A model generated the notes under the pieces. It made no database searches. It was not told the DNA's origin and was given only the letters and a program-made list of their open reading frames with translations. The position numbers were made by a program, and so were the translations under genes. Shown here piece after piece: positions 10,589 to 19,765 of a stretch of DNA of 64,000 nt. The stretch comes from Vicinamibacterales bacterium. GTDB lineage: Bacteria > Acidobacteriota > Vicinamibacteria > Vicinamibacterales > 2-12-FULL-66-21. The stretch lies in the NCBI GenBank assembly GCA_035699745.1, contig DASSPH010000018.1, positions 1-64,000 on the forward strand, in the 5' to 3' direction. The stretch's first letter is position 1. The number at the start of each line of letters is the position of its first letter.

Positions 10589-10615
10589 CCGGTCACCGGT
10601 AACCGGTTACTGTCA
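10566..10615. repeat. Palindromic heptamer tandem repeat at a convergent junction
   Basis: Five copies of the seven-base unit TAACCGG (one changed to TCACCGG) are flanked by TGACAG and CTGTCA, so the whole element is nearly self-complementary and can fold as a long hairpin. It overlaps the last codons of the nitrilase-like gene and touches the stop codon of the convergent gene. It may act as a bidirectional terminator. Confidence 0.75.
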
Positions 10616-11875
10616 GTACGTATCGAACCGATAGCCGAACTTTCTCAGGCGGTCGTACGACAGGTCCCACCAGCGGCCCTGCTCCGCGGACAGGACGCGC
10701 GTGATCTGCTGCTGCAGTGCGGGACCGTCGCGCACCGGGCCGGCGGCGGGAATGGCCTGCGAGAGCGCCGTGCAGGCGGCGGCATAGCTGTCCGACGCGG
10801 CGCACGACAGTCCGCGCCACGCCTCGATCGCTTCGCTCCGCCGCCCCTGGCGCCACAGGATCGATCCGATGAGGACGCGCGCGTCGCTCGTGCGATAGCG
10901 GCCGGGCGACGTGCGCACGATGCCGTCGAGAATCGCGAGGCGGACGCGATCGTAGAAGCGCGCCACCGCGATCGGCGACGACAGCCCGCGCTTCGACAGC
11001 TCGGTCTGGTAATGCCAGCGCAGGCGCGCGACGAGCTGGAAGGCGCGGGCGTTGGTCTGCCGCGTCCACCGCAGATCGCGGACGGGATCGGTGTCGAGCA
11101 GCGCGCCGAGCGCGTCCTGACTCGCCTCCGCGATGCGGTCGAGCAGGAACAGCAGTTCGATGGCGGCGCGGGTCGACGGATACTCCGCCACGTACTCGCG
11201 GATGAAGCCGATGAAGCTGACGTGGTCGGCGGCGATGCCGAGCTGCGCCCACAGGCGCGGATCCGGCACGGCCTTGTCCCGGTACGGCTGCAGCGCGTTC
11301 TGGTCGATGTAGCGCTGCAGCAGCGCCGGCAGCTGTCCTTCTCCCGGATCGGAGGCCCAGGCCAGCGTGCGAATCGGCTCGAAGGCCGTCCACCGCTCGC
11401 GCCGCGACCACGTTCGGTCGATCAGCGCCTGCAGCGCCGCCTCGGAGAGCGACAGCGGGTGCAGCGCCGCCTCCGCCCCTCCGTCACGCGGCCCGAGACG
11501 CGGGCGCCGGTAGACCGTCGCGCCGCTGCGGTGCACGCCGAAGTGCTCGAGCGCGATGCCGGGAGACACGAACGGGAACAACACCAGCGCGCGCGACGCG
11601 ATCTTGCCGGCGTCGAACGTGAACCCGTCCAGCGACACGAGCCGGTCTTCTGCGACCAGCGTCCGCATCGCCTCGCCGGCGGCGGGATCGACAGGGTTGA
11701 GTCCGGGATACTTCGGATCTTCAGGCGGGACGACGAACGCGGCAATCGCGGTGTCCGGCGGCCTGGTGTCGTCCGGGAGCGGCGCGCCGCCCGGCGACAG
11801 CAGCCACACGATCAGGCCGATCACGCCCGCGTGCAGCCCGGCCGAACCGGCGAACGCCGAGAGATAACGGCGCAC
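10613..11875 (-). CDS. Membrane-anchored protein of unknown function
   Basis: I do not recognise this 420-residue protein. It begins with one hydrophobic segment (about residues 8-27, SAGLHAGVIGLIVWLLSPGG), which looks like an uncleaved anchor. The rest is a soluble, mostly alpha-helical region, probably periplasmic. A segment around residues 335-385 (VLIGSILWRQGRRSEAIEAW) resembles a TPR-like helical hairpin. The GTG start sits seven bases after a GATAAT hexamer, which may be a -10 element giving a leaderless transcript. The preceding same-strand gene ends about 30 bases upstream. Confidence 0.6.
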   Translation of the reverse strand: MRRYLSAFAGSAGLHAGVIGLIVWLLSPGGAPLPDDTRPPDTAIAAFVVPPEDPKYPGLNPVDPAAGEAMRTLVAEDRLVSLDGFTFDAGKIASRALVLFPFVSPGIALEHFGVHRSGATVYRRPRLGPRDGGAEAALHPLSLSEAALQALIDRTWSRRERWTAFEPIRTLAWASDPGEGQLPALLQRYIDQNALQPYRDKAVPDPRLWAQLGIAADHVSFIGFIREYVAEYPSTRAAIELLFLLDRIAEASQDALGALLDTDPVRDLRWTRQTNARAFQLVARLRWHYQTELSKRGLSSPIAVARFYDRVRLAILDGIVRTSPGRYRTSDARVLIGSILWRQGRRSEAIEAWRGLSCAASDSYAAACTALSQAIPAAGPVRDGPALQQQITRVLSAEQGRWWDLSYDRLRKFGYRFDTY

Positions 11876-12450: not shown

Positions 12451-13965
12451 ATGCGACGCGTGCTGCTCTCCGTTCTCTTCGTCTCGTTCATGGTGCCGGT
12501 GCCGGAGGCGCAGCGTCCGGCGGCGCGCCCCGCGGCCGCGGCCCAGCGTCAGGCCTGGCTCGATCGGTTCGCGCGCGGCTACTTCCCGGGGCGCAGCGGC
12601 CAGCTGTTCGTCGTGCCGCGCGAAGGCGTGATCATCACCGACCGCGATCCGCTGTATGCGTTCATGCACGGGTCGCCGTGGGACTACGACTCGCGGATCC
12701 CGCTCCTCTTCTACGGATCCCCGTTCGTGCGTCAGGGACGCTGGACGGCGCCGGCCACGCAGCAGGACATCGCGCCGACGCTGGGCGCGCTGATCGGCGC
12801 GCCTGCCCCGGGAACCTACACCGGGCGCGTGCTTCCCAACGTCGCCGCCGCCGGCGGACGCCGGCCGAGGGTTGCGGTGCTGATGGTGCTCGACGGCATG
12901 CGCGCGGACTACTTCGACCGCTACGCGGCCGTGCTGCCGGCATTGACGCGGATGCGCCGCAGCGGCGCGTGGTTCAGCGGCGCGCGCAGCACGGTGCTGC
13001 CCACCGTCACCGGCGTGGGCCACGCGACCATCGGCACCGGCACCGATCCTCGCGTGCACGGCATCACCGCGAACAATCTCTACAACCGCGTCACCGGCCG
13101 ATCGCAGCAGGCGTACGACAAGCTGGATCCGCGCGAGCTGATGGCGCTGACGCTCGCCGACATCTGGAACCTCGCGACCGACGGACGCGCCGTGATCGTC
13201 GGCCACGGCGGCGCCATTCGCGCCACCGCCGGCCTGGTCGGGCGCGGCGCCTGCCTGGTGAACGGCCGGAAGGTGCTCGCCGCGAGCTACAGCACCACCG
13301 ACGCGGGCTGGGAGACCAATGCCGACTGCTACACGATGCCGAAGGCGCTCGACGCGTACAACGGCAAGCGCTATTGGAGCGACGTCGGCGGCACGTGGAT
13401 GGGGCACGACATTGCCTCGCCGTCGAAGTTCCGGGCGTCCGCGACCTTCCAGCAGTTCGAAGGCGAGGCGCTGCTCGCGGTGCTGGAACAGGAAGCGATC
13501 GGCGCGGACGATGTCACCGACCTGGTGATGGTGAACATGAAAGGGCCGGACTACACCGGCCACGCTTACGGTCCCGACTCGCCCGAGATCCGCGCCACGC
13601 TCGCGGAGCTGGACAAACAGATGGCGCGGCTGCTCGAGTTGCTCGATCGGAAGGCAGGCGCCGGCCAGAGCGTCGTCGTCGTCACCGCCGATCACGGCAT
13701 GCCTCCGGCGCCGCGCGACGGACGCCGCGTCTATCCCGACGAGATCGTCGCAGCGATCCACCAGAAGTTCGATCCGGCGGCGAAGGGGATCGTGAAGTAC
13801 TACGAAGACGCGGCGAACAACGAGCTGTACATCGATACGGCCCGCCTGGCCGCGCTGGGTCTCGCGCTGACGGACGTCAGGCAGCAGCTGGAATCGCTGC
13901 CGTGGTACGCGGCGGTGTTCACCGAGGACGAGGTCCGCGCCGCGGTGTCGCGGCTGCGGCGTTAG
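12451..13965 (+). CDS. Exported alkaline-phosphatase-superfamily hydrolase with permuted domain order
   Basis: This 504-residue protein has a signal peptide of about 20 residues. It belongs to the PafA-like/type I phosphodiesterase branch of the alkaline phosphatase superfamily, two-metal enzymes that hydrolyse phosphomonoesters or diesters in the periplasm. The core is present: VAVLMVLDGMRADYF with metal Asp, LPTVTGVGHATIGTG with the candidate Thr nucleophile (about 185-187), a MKGPDYTGHAYGPDS metal loop, and TADHGM (D414, H415). Unusually, the block that closes relatives, GYFPGRSGQLFVVP through HGSPWDYDSRIPLLFYG (H73) and DIAPTLGALIG, lies at the N-terminus. The protein ends at AVFTEDEVRAAVSRL, just where that block would normally follow. 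The order therefore looks circularly permuted. Confidence 0.85.
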   Translation: MRRVLLSVLFVSFMVPVPEAQRPAARPAAAAQRQAWLDRFARGYFPGRSGQLFVVPREGVIITDRDPLYAFMHGSPWDYDSRIPLLFYGSPFVRQGRWTAPATQQDIAPTLGALIGAPAPGTYTGRVLPNVAAAGGRRPRVAVLMVLDGMRADYFDRYAAVLPALTRMRRSGAWFSGARSTVLPTVTGVGHATIGTGTDPRVHGITANNLYNRVTGRSQQAYDKLDPRELMALTLADIWNLATDGRAVIVGHGGAIRATAGLVGRGACLVNGRKVLAASYSTTDAGWETNADCYTMPKALDAYNGKRYWSDVGGTWMGHDIASPSKFRASATFQQFEGEALLAVLEQEAIGADDVTDLVMVNMKGPDYTGHAYGPDSPEIRATLAELDKQMARLLELLDRKAGAGQSVVVVTADHGMPPAPRDGRRVYPDEIVAAIHQKFDPAAKGIVKYYEDAANNELYIDTARLAALGLALTDVRQQLESLPWYAAVFTEDEVRAAVSRLRR

Positions 13966-15032
13966 GCGTCCACCTTCCGCAGCTTCGTCACCCGCCCGAC
14001 TTCGACCCACTCGACGACGAAGATGTTGCCGTCGCGATCGAAACAGGCGCCGTGCGGGCAGATGAACTGACCCGGCACGAACGCCTCGCGCGGCTGGGTG
14101 CGGAGAGGGTTGTTCCAGACCGGCGCGTTGGAATCGCCGAGATGCTGCACGATCCTGTTGTCGCGATCGATCAGCGTGACCCGGGCGTGCAGGTCGGGGA
14201 CGACCACCAGGCCCTGCCGCTCGTCGAAGTGGCACGGCAGGCGGAAGCCGGCCACGAAATCGACGTGCGCGCCGTCGAGCGTGAAGCGCTGCAGGCGGTT
14301 GTTGCGGCGATCCGCGACGACCAGCAGCGGCGCCGGTCCGCGGGTGTCGATCCAGATGCCGTGCGGCTCGTTCAACTGCCCCGGCGCCGATCCGCGCCCG
14401 CCGAACGTGCGGATGTGGCGGCCGCCGCGATCGTACTGGTTGACGAAGTACGAGCCGTAGCCGTCGCCGACGTAGATGTCGCCGTTTGGCGCGATGGCGA
14501 GGTTGGTCGGGTTATAGCGCTTTGGCGTACCGTCGGGATTCGGCTCCGAGTACGCCGGCACGGCGGGAGGTCCCTGGATCGTCCACACCACCTCGCCGTT
14601 CAGCGTCGTCTTCACCACCGCGGCCTGGGTGTCCGGCGGCGGCGACAGACGCGGATTGGCGGCGTTCACGGTGAAATACAGGAACTCGCTCCCGGCTTCG
14701 CGCCGGATCTGCAGGCCGTGCGCGACGCCGCGGAACTGCCGGCCCCAGGAGCGCACGAACCGGCCGCTGCCGTCGAACACCACGACCGAGTCGCCGCTGT
14801 CGCTGCTGGCGTGGACGGTGTGATGAACGTGAAAGTGTCCCTGCGCGTCCTGGACGACCGCGTGCGTGTTGCCCCACTTGATGTGCGGCGGCAGCACGCC
14901 CCAGTCGTGGATCGCCTCGTAGGTGTAGGCGCCGCTGCCGACCACGGGCGGCCGCGTTCCCGCCTTGTCCTGCAGCCGGATCAGCGCCGGCGCCGCGGCG
15001 ATTGCCAGGAACTCACGTCGGGTCGTCTTCAT
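13962..15032 (-). CDS. Tat-exported NHL-type beta-propeller protein
   Basis: This 356-residue protein begins with a twin-arginine-like signal (MKTTRREFLAIAAAP), so export in folded form is likely. The rest consists of repeated beta-propeller blades with NHL-type signatures such as PTNLAIAPNGDIYVGDGYGS, LNEPHGIWIDTRG and CPHGACFDRDGNIFVVEW, spaced about 45-50 residues. Related propellers include peptidyl-alpha-hydroxyglycine amidating lyases, but I cannot identify the catalytic set here with certainty. It is the last gene of a minus-strand operon and starts five bases after the DUF1501 gene. It overlaps the convergent phosphatase gene by four bases. Confidence 0.75.
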   Translation of the reverse strand: MKTTRREFLAIAAAPALIRLQDKAGTRPPVVGSGAYTYEAIHDWGVLPPHIKWGNTHAVVQDAQGHFHVHHTVHASSDSGDSVVVFDGSGRFVRSWGRQFRGVAHGLQIRREAGSEFLYFTVNAANPRLSPPPDTQAAVVKTTLNGEVVWTIQGPPAVPAYSEPNPDGTPKRYNPTNLAIAPNGDIYVGDGYGSYFVNQYDRGGRHIRTFGGRGSAPGQLNEPHGIWIDTRGPAPLLVVADRRNNRLQRFTLDGAHVDFVAGFRLPCHFDERQGLVVVPDLHARVTLIDRDNRIVQHLGDSNAPVWNNPLRTQPREAFVPGQFICPHGACFDRDGNIFVVEWVEVGRVTKLRKVDA

Positions 15033-15037
15033 GGTGC

Positions 15038-16489
15038 TCACGAGCGCGCGAACAGATCGAGGATCGGCTCCCCTTCGCCGTCGCGGGTGACATAAACAGG
15101 ACGCCGCTCGACCACGTAGGAGGTATCGGCGGCAATGCCGAGCGCGTGATAGATGGTGGCGTGCAGGTCTTCCATGACGACCGGGTTCTCGATCGTCGTG
15201 CACGGACGCTCCTCCGCCGTCTTGCCGTAGAGGAACCCGCGCTTCACCCCGCCGCCGAACATCAGGACGGATCCCGCCGCGGTGAAGTGCCGGTGCATGC
15301 CGTAATGCCGCGGCTCGGTCATCACGTCGGGAATGTTGATCGCCTGATCCTTGACTTCCTTGCCGACCTTGCCTTCGGTGATGGCGTCGCGCCCGAACTC
15401 GCTGGCCAGGATGACGAGCGTCCGCTCGAGCAGGCCGCGCTCGTCGAGGTCGCGAACGAGGCGCGCCACGGGCGCGTCGATCAGCTTCTTCATCGCCGCG
15501 GCGCGATCGTGCCCGTGCTCGTGGCTGTCCCAGTAGACGAACGGGATGTATTCCGACGTGACCTCGACGTAGCGGGCGCCGGCTTCGACGAGCCGCCGCG
15601 CCAGCAGGCAGCCCTGCCCGAAGCGGCCGGTGTTGTAGGCGTCGAAGCCGTCCTTCGGCTCGAGCGAGAGGTCGAACGCCTTCGCCGACGGCGATCGCAG
15701 CAGCCGGTCGGCGGCATCGAGCGACTTGACCAGCGACTCGCGCTGGAAGCCGCCGCCGTGACGGTAGACCGGGTCCTCGCCGAGGAGCCTGGTCAGCAGC
15801 TCGCGCCGGCTGCGAAACCGCGCCTCGCCGAGCTCGCGCGGCGGCCGCACCGCCGACGCCGCGTCCTGAGGATCGACGATCAGAAAAGGCCCGTGCTCGG
15901 CGCCGAGGAACCCCGCGGTGTGAAAGGCCTTGAGCGTGCCGATCTCGCCGGCCCCTTCCACGGTCTGCCCGATGGCGATGAAGGCGGGCACGTCGGGATG
16001 CTTCGGCCCGAGCGTGCGCGAGATCACGGCGCCGATGTGCGGCATCGCCATCGGCTGCGGCGGGATGTAGCCGGTGTGCCAGTGGTACTGGTGCCGCGAG
16101 TGGAGAATGAACCCGAGATCGGCGGCGTTGAACGTGCGAATCAACGTCCCGCGATCCATCACGCGCGCAATCTGCTCGAGTCCCTCCGTGAACCGGATGC
16201 CGTCGACGCTGGTCGGGATCGAGGGGAAGGTGCTGAGCACCTGATCGACGCGCACGCCGGGGGCGAACGGCGTGTAGCGCTTCGGATCGAACGTCTCGGT
16301 CTGCGCCATGCCGCCGGCCATCCAGAGCACGATCACCGCATCCGCGGTGGCGCGGCGCGGCGGCGTGCCCTGCGCGAGGATCGGCTCCCGTCCGGCGAGC
16401 GCCGACAGCGTCGCGGCCGCGGTCGCCCCCATGAACCCGCGGCGGCTGACGGCCCGGAAGACTTCGCGCTCGGCCCGGTCAATGGACAA
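15038..16489 (-). CDS. Tat-exported DUF1501 protein
   Basis: This 483-residue protein has a Tat signal (SRRGFMGATAAATLSALAG) and the DUF1501 fold, which belongs to the alkaline-phosphatase/sulfatase-like superfamily. Motifs include VIVLWMAGGMAQTETFDPK near the start, RSRHQYHWHTGY-like histidine-rich segments, YVEVTSEYIPFVYWDSHEHGHDR and TLVILASEFGRD. Histidines and aspartates consistent with a metal site are present. Function is unproven for the family, which is typically encoded next to DUF1549/DUF1553 cytochrome-like proteins, as here. The upstream gene's coding region overlaps this one by 11 bases, indicating translational coupling. Confidence 0.85.
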   Translation of the reverse strand: MSIDRAEREVFRAVSRRGFMGATAAATLSALAGREPILAQGTPPRRATADAVIVLWMAGGMAQTETFDPKRYTPFAPGVRVDQVLSTFPSIPTSVDGIRFTEGLEQIARVMDRGTLIRTFNAADLGFILHSRHQYHWHTGYIPPQPMAMPHIGAVISRTLGPKHPDVPAFIAIGQTVEGAGEIGTLKAFHTAGFLGAEHGPFLIVDPQDAASAVRPPRELGEARFRSRRELLTRLLGEDPVYRHGGGFQRESLVKSLDAADRLLRSPSAKAFDLSLEPKDGFDAYNTGRFGQGCLLARRLVEAGARYVEVTSEYIPFVYWDSHEHGHDRAAAMKKLIDAPVARLVRDLDERGLLERTLVILASEFGRDAITEGKVGKEVKDQAINIPDVMTEPRHYGMHRHFTAAGSVLMFGGGVKRGFLYGKTAEERPCTTIENPVVMEDLHATIYHALGIAADTSYVVERRPVYVTRDGEGEPILDLFARS

Positions 16490-18929
16490 ACTGGAACTCC
16501 GGCTTCATGGTAACCGCCCAGATGAAATCCGCAAGCGCGGCGGCAGACGGCCGGGATCCCTCGGGATTGCGCAGCGCGGCTTCCGCGATCCGCCGCTCCG
16601 CCGCCGACGGCGCGCGGCCCAGCAGGTGCCAGAACACGCGATCGACCGCCTCCGCCGCGGACGACACCGGCGCCGGCGGCGGCAGCGGCGTGCCGGGCGC
16701 CGGCGGAATCAGCCGCTCCATGTCCGGCGCGGTGTCGAAGACGAAGAACCGGACCTGCGGATTCAGCGTCGAGCCGATGTCGGCGCGCGGGTTCTCCAGC
16801 CCGACGACGCCGCGCAGGCGCGTGAAGCCGCGGCCGGCGATGTCGTAGACGAGCACGGACGGGTTCCTGACCCGCACGCCGGTGCCGTTCGCGCCCGGAA
16901 CTGCGAGCGGTCCGGCCCCGGCGCGAAGCCCCGAGGCGTCGCGCGGCGTCAGCGCGCTCAACGGCGCCGGTCCGTCCGGCCCGACGAGCTCGGCCTGCGC
17001 CCAGGCCGGCCGGACCGCTTCGGGCGCGTTCGATCCCGCCTCCTGCACCACCAGCCACAGCGCCGAAGTGCGCGACACGTCGATGTCGAACGGACTCGAG
17101 GCGGCGTTCCGCCCGGCCACGGCGCGGTTGTAGAGGCTCGCCGGCTCCACGGCGATCTCGCCGAGCAGGCGGCGCGCACCGCGCGCCAGGCGGCGCGTAT
17201 AGATCTCGCCGTTCACCAGTTCGAGCGCCTGCAGCGTGGAGGCGTCGATCGCGCGCATCGAATGCACCTGATCGCGGATCGGCCGTCCCAGCGCGCGCGT
17301 GAGCGCGGACGAGGGCGTGCGCCATTCCCGGGCGTAGGCGCCGCCGGGGGTCGCCGGACGCCCGGGATAGACGTTCCACTCGCCGGTCAGCGCGCCGATC
17401 GCGTCGGCGAACTGCTCCGCGGTCAGCCGCCGCACTTCCGGACCGGCGAACGCATAACGGTGCGCCGCAGCCTCCGCCGTGCGCGTCACCGCCGGCATCT
17501 CGTAGGCGCGCGACTTCATGATCGTCGCGATCAACCGTTTCATGTCGTAGCCGCTCGCGACGAAATCGTGGGCGAGGAACTCGAGCAGCGGCGGGCTCCA
17601 CGGCCGTCCGTCCAGGTCGTCGGGGTTGACCACGAGTCCGCGCCCGAACAGCCGGTGCCAGACGCGATTGACCAGCGTGCGCGGCAGGCGGCCGTTGCGC
17701 GGATCGGTGAAGATGGCCGCCGCCGCGGCGCGGCGATCGGCCAGCGCGGAGCTGCGCGGCGCGCGGTCCAGTTCGGGAAACAGGAAGGCCGGCCCGGCGT
17801 ACTTGTTCTGCGCGACATCGCAGCGGTACAACTGCAGCGACGGCTCGGGCGAGAAGTAGGCGGCGAGCGAGTACGCGTCCTTCAGCTTCCAGCGGTTCAC
17901 GAAGCTGTCGTGGCACGCGTTGCACTTCAGATTGATCCCCAGGAACACCTGGGCGGTGTTCTGCGCCGCCTGCATCCACGGCGTCACCGCGGCGCTGGTC
18001 TCGCCGCGCCAGTTCACGCCGATCAGGAAGCCTTCCGGATCGGCCGGCCCGGCCGGATTGAGCAGCGCCGTGACGAAGCGATCGTACGGCAGGTTCGCCG
18101 CCAGCGCCGGCAGCAGCCAGTCGGTGATGCTCTTGCGCCCGGCGGTCTCGGAGAAGTAGGTGACGCCGTCCTCGTTCCGCAGCAGATCGTTCCAGAACGA
18201 GATCCAGTGCTCGGCGTACTTGTCGTTGTCGGCAAGCAGACGGTCGACCAGCGCGGCGCGCTTGCCGGGACGAGTGTCGGCCAGGAACGCGCGCAACTCT
18301 TCCGGCGTGGGCAGCAGGCCCCAGGCGTCGAGATAGACGCGGCGGGCGAACTGCGCGTCCGCCACGGGGGAGGGCTGCGGCGTGCGCTTCGCGGCGAGAT
18401 ACGACGCGACGAATCGATCCAGCGGCGCGGACCAGCGCGGCCAGACCACCGTGGGCGTCGCCGGCGGCGCGAGCGCGAGCGGCGGCTCCCACGGCTGCGG
18501 CGCGGCCGGCGACGCCGGCGTTTCGCGCGCCCCTTCGTCGATCCAGCGCTGGACCAGCGCGATCTCCGCCGGCGACAGCGGCGTCTCGTCCTTGGGCATC
18601 TGCGGCTCGACCGCCCCGGTGACGCGATGAATCAACAGACTTCGCGCCGCCGCCCCCGGCCGGATGACGAAGCCGTTGCGTCCGCCGTCGAGCGCGTCCG
18701 CGTAGGTGGCCAGCGACAGCCCGCCCTGGCGCCGATCCTGGTTGTGACACTCGAGGCAGTGCTTCGCGAGCAGCGGCTGGATCTGCCGCGCGAAGTCGAC
18801 CCGCCTCGGCGCGGGACGCTGCGCCGTCGCGGTCGCCACCGCGGCGACCCACACCGCCGCGGCGACCGCCGACGCCGCGCCTGCGCTGCAACGACGAATC
18901 ACTGCTGCCCTGCCGCCCTCACAGATCAT
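16479..18929 (-). CDS. PSD1 / DUF1549-DUF1553 protein with cytochrome-c-like heme motif
   Basis: This protein of about 816 residues has a signal-like N-terminus and then a planctomycete-type cytochrome C domain with a CLECH heme-binding motif (about residues 58-62). DUF1549 follows (from about 180, including a second CxxCH, CNACH, in NLKCNACHDSFVNRW). DUF1553 is C-terminal (YEMPAVTRTAEAAAHRYAF, RRLTAEQFADAIGALTG, PSAAERRIAEAAL). Such proteins are exported and paired with DUF1501; a redox role in polymer degradation has been suggested but is unproven. The start is uncertain because a GTG about ten codons downstream is also possible. Confidence 0.83.
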   Translation of the reverse strand: MICEGGRAAVIRRCSAGAASAVAAAVWVAAVATATAQRPAPRRVDFARQIQPLLAKHCLECHNQDRRQGGLSLATYADALDGGRNGFVIRPGAAARSLLIHRVTGAVEPQMPKDETPLSPAEIALVQRWIDEGARETPASPAAPQPWEPPLALAPPATPTVVWPRWSAPLDRFVASYLAAKRTPQPSPVADAQFARRVYLDAWGLLPTPEELRAFLADTRPGKRAALVDRLLADNDKYAEHWISFWNDLLRNEDGVTYFSETAGRKSITDWLLPALAANLPYDRFVTALLNPAGPADPEGFLIGVNWRGETSAAVTPWMQAAQNTAQVFLGINLKCNACHDSFVNRWKLKDAYSLAAYFSPEPSLQLYRCDVAQNKYAGPAFLFPELDRAPRSSALADRRAAAAAIFTDPRNGRLPRTLVNRVWHRLFGRGLVVNPDDLDGRPWSPPLLEFLAHDFVASGYDMKRLIATIMKSRAYEMPAVTRTAEAAAHRYAFAGPEVRRLTAEQFADAIGALTGEWNVYPGRPATPGGAYAREWRTPSSALTRALGRPIRDQVHSMRAIDASTLQALELVNGEIYTRRLARGARRLLGEIAVEPASLYNRAVAGRNAASSPFDIDVSRTSALWLVVQEAGSNAPEAVRPAWAQAELVGPDGPAPLSALTPRDASGLRAGAGPLAVPGANGTGVRVRNPSVLVYDIAGRGFTRLRGVVGLENPRADIGSTLNPQVRFFVFDTAPDMERLIPPAPGTPLPPPAPVSSAAEAVDRVFWHLLGRAPSAAERRIAEAALRNPEGSRPSAAALADFIWAVTMKPEFQFVH

Positions 18930-18967
18930 GGCTTCATTGCTGGCTTCCGGCCGCTGCACCAGCGAAA

Positions 18968-19765
18968 TCAGATCTGCGAATACCCCGCCGGCCTGAGGAA
19001 CACCGTGGTGATGTTCGACACGATCTCGGGATCGGTGAACCCGGGCGTCTGCGAGAGCTTGCGCCATTCGGCGTCGGTGCGGAACGCGTCCCAGCTCTTC
19101 TCGCGCGCCGCCATGTTGTCGTGCACCAGCATGTAGACGAGATTCGGCATCTTCGGGCCGGCCAGCGTGCGCGCGAAGAACACCGGCGTCAGCCCGGCGC
19201 GCTTGAAGATGTCGATCTCCCCCATCTCCGCGAACATCCTGACCTTCGCGCGGTGCGCCCGCTCGTTGTGGCTTTCGTAGGTGCGCAGCTCGAACAGCCG
19301 CGGCCCCTTCGCGGCGGTGGCGGCGGGCACCTGGATCCGCGGCATCTGCGGAAACGCCGACAGGATCGAGATCTCCTGCCGCACGTACACCGGATCGGTT
19401 GCGGCCGAATCGCCGTAGGTCGCCGAGGCGCGCGTGAACGCCTCGTCCTTGTCGAGCTGCGCCTCCCGGGCCGCGAGCGCGTCCGCCGAGGCGAAGGGCG
19501 TCAGCACGAACACGGTCGGCGACGGCACGCCGAAGACCGCCTCGAACACACCCACGGGCGTATGGCCGAGCCGATTCAGCGCCGGAAGCAACGCGTTCTG
19601 AAGATAGTCGGCGAGCCGCCGCGGCTGCGTGCCCGTCCGCAGCGAATACTGCCGCCACTCGTAGATCTGCGGGGCGCCGGCCGGCGCCCCGCCGCTGGAA
19701 GACTGCCACTCGGCCGCCATGGCCGGAAGAACCGGGAGACCGGCAAGGAATTCACGTCGCACCAT
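18968..19765 (-). CDS. Exported NIPSNAP-family protein
   Basis: This 265-residue protein has a twin-arginine-like N-terminus (MVRREFLAGLPVLPAMAAEW) and two tandem NIPSNAP-type alpha-beta barrel repeats. The first starts at IYEWRQYSLRTGTQPRRLADY and the second at LFELRTYESHNERAHRAKVRMF. The second closes with PNLVYMLVHDNMAAREKSW, a common family ending. Exported NIPSNAP proteins are frequent in this kind of gene neighbourhood, but their substrate is unknown. It is the first gene of the four-gene minus-strand operon leading to PSD1, DUF1501 and the propeller protein. A TATAGT box lies six bases before its ATG. Confidence 0.8.
   Translation of the reverse strand: MVRREFLAGLPVLPAMAAEWQSSSGGAPAGAPQIYEWRQYSLRTGTQPRRLADYLQNALLPALNRLGHTPVGVFEAVFGVPSPTVFVLTPFASADALAAREAQLDKDEAFTRASATYGDSAATDPVYVRQEISILSAFPQMPRIQVPAATAAKGPRLFELRTYESHNERAHRAKVRMFAEMGEIDIFKRAGLTPVFFARTLAGPKMPNLVYMLVHDNMAAREKSWDAFRTDAEWRKLSQTPGFTDPEIVSNITTVFLRPAGYSQI

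Follow-up and report, generated by a model that had tools for sequence, protein, structure and literature searches.

Sequence evidence for a natural circular permutant of PafA/PhoK-type enzymes in Vicinamibacterales, with an apparently relocated active-site lysine

The locus and its parts

The window (the whole 64,000-nucleotide stretch of Vicinamibacterales DNA analysed here) carries on its forward strand a gene whose product contains the parts of a PafA/PhoK-type enzyme in swapped order. The features are as follows, with residue numbers of the encoded protein.

12451..13965, + strand: whole gene, 504 residues plus stop, ATG start; circularly permuted PafA/PhoK-type enzyme, as judged from the open reading frame, phmmer and profile-profile comparison
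12451..12513, + strand: probable Sec signal peptide, residues 1 to about 21, assigned by eye with a presumed cleavage point; without a candidate lipobox
12562..12843, + strand: relocated block, residues 38-131, equivalent to PafA 443-532 and C-terminal in ordinary enzymes
12667..12669, + strand: H73, in the alignment column of the His conserved in ordinary C-terminal blocks; predicted third Zn1 ligand
12844..12861, + strand: short joint linking the former C-terminus to the former N-terminus, residues 132-137
12862..13236, + strand: nucleophile core, residues 138-262, with D148, T187, N208 and R257
13009..13011, + strand: T187, predicted nucleophile, aligned with PafA T79 in alignments to both wild-type 5tj3 and mutant 5too
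13213..13215, + strand: A255, at the position of PafA K162; no lysine
13456..13950, + strand: metal core, residues 336-500, with D367, H371, D414 and H415; the protein ends four residues further on
13540..13542, + strand: K364, a lysine confined to the permuted clade within the data set, three residues before the predicted metal ligand D367

The motifs that the earlier note had picked out (GYFPGRSGQL, HGSPWDYD with H73, IPLLF and DIAPTLGALIG) are all located in the 504-residue open reading frame, and the C-terminal end is AVFTEDEVRAAVSRLRR, as the note had it, only four residues beyond the metal core. The block does come first in the chain, although not directly after the signal peptide as had been claimed, the two being separated by about 16 residues.

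Upstream, a 420-residue open reading frame on the minus strand (window 10613-11875) has no Pfam match at E 0.001. Downstream, the minus strand of window 13962-19709 encodes an NHL-repeat protein, a DUF1501 protein and one large open reading frame, which is presumably of the DUF1553 type, a type that we take to be often paired with DUF1501.

Order of the segments

Comparison by phmmer with proteins of solved structure gives three out-of-order stretches of similarity to PafA (5tj3), in which query residues 39-131 align with PafA 443-532, 137-220 with 16-101, and 343-479 with 270-411. The same swapped pattern is seen with PhoK (5xwi and 3q3q), where the block (query 24-132) corresponds to PhoK 438-550, and the block alone has i-Evalues of 1.1e-4 against PafA and 5e-8 and 4e-8 against PhoK. 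The NCBIfam PafA and PhoY models also each match the query in three stretches. When a profile of 27 permuted proteins was compared with a profile of 41 ordinary ones, there were two clean matches in swapped order, one for the core (permuted 105-472 on ordinary 5-423, probability 100, E 9.6e-55) and one for the block (permuted 8-108 on ordinary 428-522, probability 99.6, E 4e-24), the third match being noise (probability 0.2). The block match, made by hhalign, covers 95 columns with 41% identity to L084. The order that the earlier note had read from the letters, with the His block preceding the nucleophile core and then the metal core, is thus borne out by the phmmer matches to PafA and PhoK and by the profile-profile matches; the block is not an unrelated N-terminal domain, a possibility that the note had raised against itself, as its homologs identify it as the C-terminal block of PafA and PhoK.

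In all 27 permuted proteins each segment of the parent is present once and the order is cyclically shifted, which is what a circular permutant should show in its sequence and fits the earlier description of the gene as a permutation and not a duplication or truncation. Truncation and duplication are ruled out by the single-copy segments and by the 0-15 residues that follow the metal core in 27 of 27.

The cut site lies in what is a linker in ordinary proteins, between '...VYRGDTIRERR' and 'RALARNYYPGRSGD' (L084), and the joint of the permuted proteins stands where ordinary proteins have a short tail after the block. The distance from the metal-core match to the block match is 6-18 residues in 18 of the 41 ordinary proteins and longer in 22, in which the core match mostly ends early; tails after the block are mostly short.

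Distribution and genomic context

Segment models built from a 17-sequence profile (A1) were run on every open reading frame of at least 150 residues on the fetched loci. All 27 distinct reading frames with a summed segment score above 300 bits have the order C-block, N-core, M-core, and the 41 lower-scoring distinct reading frames with all three segments (16 in an earlier round) have without exception the order N, M, C. Reading frames with fewer than three segments stand outside these counts; they are distant members in which no block is detected, fragments from contig edges or short frames (L057, L098), and the broken copy of genome G041 (L045). Recurrence of the order in related genomes, which the earlier note had proposed as a check, is therefore seen in 27 distinct proteins of many assemblies, and the 26 others are 41-69% identical to that of the window over the shared part.

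A scan of genome contigs gave 22 loci, 16 of which (L001-L016) hold a full-length permuted relative, the other six having the nucleophile and metal segments at most. In a sample of 396 genomes of the phylum searched with profile A1, at least 13 have contiguous full-length matches, each of at least 629 bits, and G041 is a fourteenth in which the permuted copy is broken; the remaining matches listed are partial, score at most 148 bits, and correspond to ordinary or more distant relatives. Within the window's order at least 24 of 162 genomes match at E <= 1e-80, including the broken gene of G041. These genome counts are lower bounds, as the best three candidates per genome were scored for the phylum and the best nine for the order. 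One permuted copy (L042, from G125) resides in a single-contig genome of 7.5 Mb. In the broken gene of G041 (L045, contig 32) the block can be traced only at its start and the core is divided between two frames, reflecting either decay or an assembly error.

Beyond the genome-contig scan, profile searches covered Acidobacteriota, the phylum of L017 (Opitutales) and plasmids. None of 288 genomes in the phylum of L017 matches at E <= 1e-30, in a search without an internal positive control; A1, a profile very like the one used, does give matches in Acidobacteriota. Among plasmids 106 records match, and the sole one that covers 80% of the query (H1), which is also the one in which order was checked, has the ordinary order. 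L007, titled Cyanobacteria, is probably mislabelled, since L035 (from G167, of the window's order), which had been dropped as a duplicate, has an equal reading-frame length and equal segment scores.

In a quick tree of 68 proteins the 27 permuted ones form one side of a single branch (SH-aLRT 100), so that one change of order is needed. The tree is unrooted and is to be read with a warning of long-branch effects, as L097, a long ordinary row, attaches to the permuted stem in a join that may be false. In the rest of the superfamily the third His comes last, and because of this we take the ordinary order as ancestral. Estimates of dN/dS for block and core in seven pairs are 0.04-0.19 in 13 of the 14 comparisons, the exception being the block of L001/L002 (0.57), which rests on a dS of 0.06.

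Permuted and ordinary kinds usually coexist in one genome. In the window's assembly an ordinary member is on contig 45, the permuted gene described here is on contig 18, and a second permuted gene is on contig 57; there are two further weak matches, on contigs 5 and 42, with two segments only. The second permuted paralog (L028:385-1920, minus strand) encodes a divergent protein of 511 residues in which V replaces the active-site Asn (N208), and it groups with L042, L043 and L044 (support 100) in what we call subfamily B. An ordinary PafA-type match apart from the permuted gene is present in 24 of the 27 genomes searched, in pieces in G402, and is absent at E <= 1e-15 from G148, G169 and G474. 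Three permuted-gene loci (L001, L002 and L063) also carry on the minus strand a more distant reading frame of the alkaline phosphatase superfamily, with the nucleophile and metal segments only and open frames of 481-532 residues.

The neighbourhoods were clustered using the reading frames of 16 loci together with those of the window and of the contig 57 locus, making 18 sources, some with short flanks. Clusters that span 9-16 sources resemble, judging from their positions, chained overlapping shadow reading frames of the gene and its neighbours. Six locus reading frames were scanned with Pfam and include a creatininase-like protein, a DPP4-like peptidase and an isocitrate/isopropylmalate dehydrogenase (clusters of six sources each) and release factor 3 and cytochrome c (four sources each), with nothing above the cut-off for the sixth (three sources). 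No shared neighbour among the 18 sources, including these six, points to a substrate.

Active-site residues

Residue counts were taken from a rotated alignment of the 27 permuted and 41 ordinary proteins. H73, D148, D367, H371, D414 and H415 are invariant in 68 of 68, and T187 is T in all 27 permuted proteins and in 40 of the 41 ordinary ones (S in the other). The residues of a predicted two-metal site (D, T, D, H, D and H, with the third His supplied by the C-terminal block) are accordingly present in every permuted protein, as far as sequence can tell; the conserved His with which H73 aligns is presumably PafA H486. N208 (PafA N100) is conserved in 24 of 27 permuted and 38 of 41 ordinary proteins, the column being V in L025, L042 and L043 of subfamily B while L044 keeps N, and R257 (PafA R164) is conserved in 26 of 27 and 38 of 41.

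A different relationship is seen at the position of PafA K162, which is K in 40 of the 41 ordinary proteins and A, T or I in all 27 permuted ones. Conversely, column 364 is K in all 27 permuted proteins and S, A or P in the 41 ordinary ones, and a key lysine of the active site thus seems to have changed position in the permuted clade. The swap and the permutation fall on one and the same branch, so these counts represent one event and not 27 independent ones. We take PafA N100, K162 and R164 to have catalytic roles; the PafA structure 5too is by its title T79S/N100A/K162A/R164A, with four residues mutated together. Folds of this kind carry the active site at strand ends, and in the predicted model K364 (model residue 336) would lie between a strand at 329-335 and a helix at 337-345 (model numbers). 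This would be a strand end, three residues before the predicted ligand D367. A takeover by K364 of the charge of PafA K162 from another point of the chain is more likely than simple loss; alternatively, K364 may serve a different substrate.

We also note a Cys pair, C268 and C293, shared by all 27 permuted proteins and lacking from both columns in all 41 ordinary ones, which is possibly a clade-specific disulfide.

Predicted structure, export and proposed mechanism

An AlphaFold model made from 27 sequences in the permuted order, with the signal region left out, has a pLDDT of 94.4 and a pTM of 0.94, with no residue below 50 and a mean of 94 in the ten-residue bin that includes H73; an earlier model from 17 sequences was weaker (pLDDT 78, pTM 0.81, residues 73-78 below 50). 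Foldseek ranks PafA first (E 1.9e-16, TM 0.64 by query length), followed by PhoK. The core of the model matches the PafA fold, VIA aligning model residues 106-469 to residues 24-444 of the 5tj3 chain (Z 29.6, rmsd 2.9, 350 of 476 residues aligned), an alignment that takes in the core only and is silent on the fold of the block, which lies outside it. The structural check suggested by the earlier note therefore came out in part: a confident model of the full chain was obtained, and superposition on PafA extended over the core (model 106-469) and not to H73. We infer from homology and the high pTM that the H73 block is placed as in the ordinary fold, because a pTM of 0.94 is hardly compatible with a 100-residue block of uncertain position. 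Judging from sequence and model together, the PafA fold and a two-metal chemistry with a Thr nucleophile are likely.

A candidate lipobox Cys, identified by regular expression, precedes the block by 21-37 residues in 20 of the 27 permuted proteins; there is none in the window's copy, in subfamily B, or in L041 and L074. The best reading of the clade is of exported phosphatases, often lipoproteins, with two zinc ions and a Thr nucleophile, permuted once and with a relocated active-site lysine.

In the permutant a short linker connects the old N- and C-termini, the new ends lie in what was the loop from metal core to C-terminal block, and the relocated block is preceded by an export signal. The chain would fold to the ordinary shape, with H73 completing Zn1 together with D367 and H371, and Zn2 held by D148, T187, D414 and H415. 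T187 would attack the phosphoryl group to give a phospho-Thr intermediate, from which a Zn1-bound water would release phosphate outside the cytoplasm, while N208 and R257 would bind the oxygens of the phosphoryl group, as their counterparts do in PafA. The function of K162 would be lost or, more likely, supplied by K364, with a changed preference among phosphate mono- and diesters.

Function and origin

As a whole, the best explanation is that the gene is a natural circular permutant of the PafA/PhoK branch, including its predicted fold and chemistry, to which we assign a probability of about 85%. At the level of sequence, the swapped order, the single-copy segments, the kept predicted metal ligands and nucleophile, the confinement to one clade and the purifying selection are all in place.

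The readings that compete with parts of this differ in how well they survive. The strongest concerns substrate, and proposes that the enzyme is a permuted phosphodiesterase or other ester hydrolase, such as one resembling nucleotide pyrophosphatases or acting on phosphonate or sulfate esters, and not a phosphomonoesterase. The disappearance of the K162 equivalent from every permuted protein (27 of 27) and the V in place of N208 in three members (L025, L042 and L043) are in keeping with this, as is the presence of ordinary PafA-type genes in 24 of 27 genomes, which suggests that the permuted enzyme may act otherwise; furthermore, phosphonoacetate hydrolases and nucleotide pyrophosphatases/phosphodiesterases (NPPs) are the next entries below PafA and PhoK in the fold lists. 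However, most members retain R257 (26 of 27) and N208 (24 of 27), K364 may stand in for K162, and the nearest solved structures by both sequence and fold are alkaline phosphatases, such that we regard another ester hydrolase as a serious contender that nonetheless falls short of an even chance.

A second alternative concerns origin, and supposes that a stray C-terminal block of one ordinary gene was fused in front of a truncated ordinary gene, with the same product. No double block or tandem intermediate was found among the reading frames scanned on the fetched loci, so the duplication route is undocumented, and the donor is hidden behind the clade's long stem, at 1.1 changes per column. The ends nevertheless fall in natural linkers, as whole-gene duplication and trimming predicts, and although fusion could give the same ends we consider it unlikely. 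A pseudoenzyme or binding protein that merely retains the fold would account for the loss of the K162 equivalent in all 27 and of N208 in three members, but is very improbable given that all seven predicted metal ligands, including the nucleophile, are invariant in 27 of 27.

An assembly or binning chimera of two gene pieces, as might be suspected from the 16 source assemblies of the genome-contig scan that are titled metagenome bins, is rejected because the same order recurs in 27 distinct proteins, one from a single-contig genome; the joint is found in 26 further proteins of many assemblies, a second permuted copy is on another contig of the window's genome, and purifying selection acts on block as well as core, leaving a negligible chance that rests on identical errors in all assemblies.

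Returning to the circular permutant, a more far-reaching proposal is that the permutation and the move of the lysine, from the K162 loop to the K364 strand end beside a Zn1 ligand, are linked, and that the clade represents a new class of enzymes within the superfamily, acting on a substrate of its own and exported or surface-anchored in Acidobacteria beside ordinary PafA-type phosphatases. We offer this tentatively, as a conjecture that we would sooner doubt than assert.

Comparison with known systems

The alkaline phosphatase superfamily, most of all PafA, serves as a model of differing specificities built on a shared active site. A natural permutant with a swapped lysine would be nature's version of two experiments, asking whether chain order matters for folding and export, and whether a catalytic positive charge can come from another point of the backbone, and as such is a natural experiment in protein evolution. 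Annotation may also be affected by a permuted clade that lacks Lys162. In one survey of PafA, only sequences with key monoesterase residues were retained (PMC8812569); if Lys162 is among these, the filter would drop the permuted clade, and the clade's contribution to phosphorus cycling would be overlooked. No description of a permuted alkaline phosphatase, nor of the lysine relocation, was found in a literature search conducted mostly without subscription papers.

The window protein shares with PafA (5tj3, 5too) three homologous segments, aligned metal ligands and a Thr nucleophile, with the Asn and Arg in most members, and differs in its permuted segment order, the missing Lys at K162, the invariant K364 and the C268/C293 pair. 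It matches the PafA equivalog NF042991 with 173.4 bits in three stretches and so does not reach the cut-off of 650, which the ordinary Acidobacteriota relatives also miss (0 of 27 genomes). With regard to the active-site set of that model (Lys162/Arg164/Asn100), the permuted proteins are without the Lys in 27 of 27, and have the Arg in 26 and the Asn in 24. Against the PhoY equivalog NF051873 the score is 116.6 bits, below the cut-off of 1000.

PhoK/SPAP of Sphingomonas (3q3q, 5xwi, 5xwk) provides the best match to the block among the alignments listed, including HGSPWD, and its core fold matches with Z 25-27. Unlike the window protein, PhoK has the ordinary order, as has the plasmid relative from Sphingomonas paeninsulae (H1/L105).

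The NPPs and phosphonoacetate hydrolase share the Phosphodiest domain, to which the window protein matches with 148.3 bits (PF01663, cut-off 23), and a core fold with Z 16-20 among the matches listed, but among those same matches at most two stretches correspond by sequence. Their ligands are in the ordinary order. Judged from its sequence, then, the window protein is a natural circular permutant of a known kind of enzyme, with a probable relocation of the lysine.
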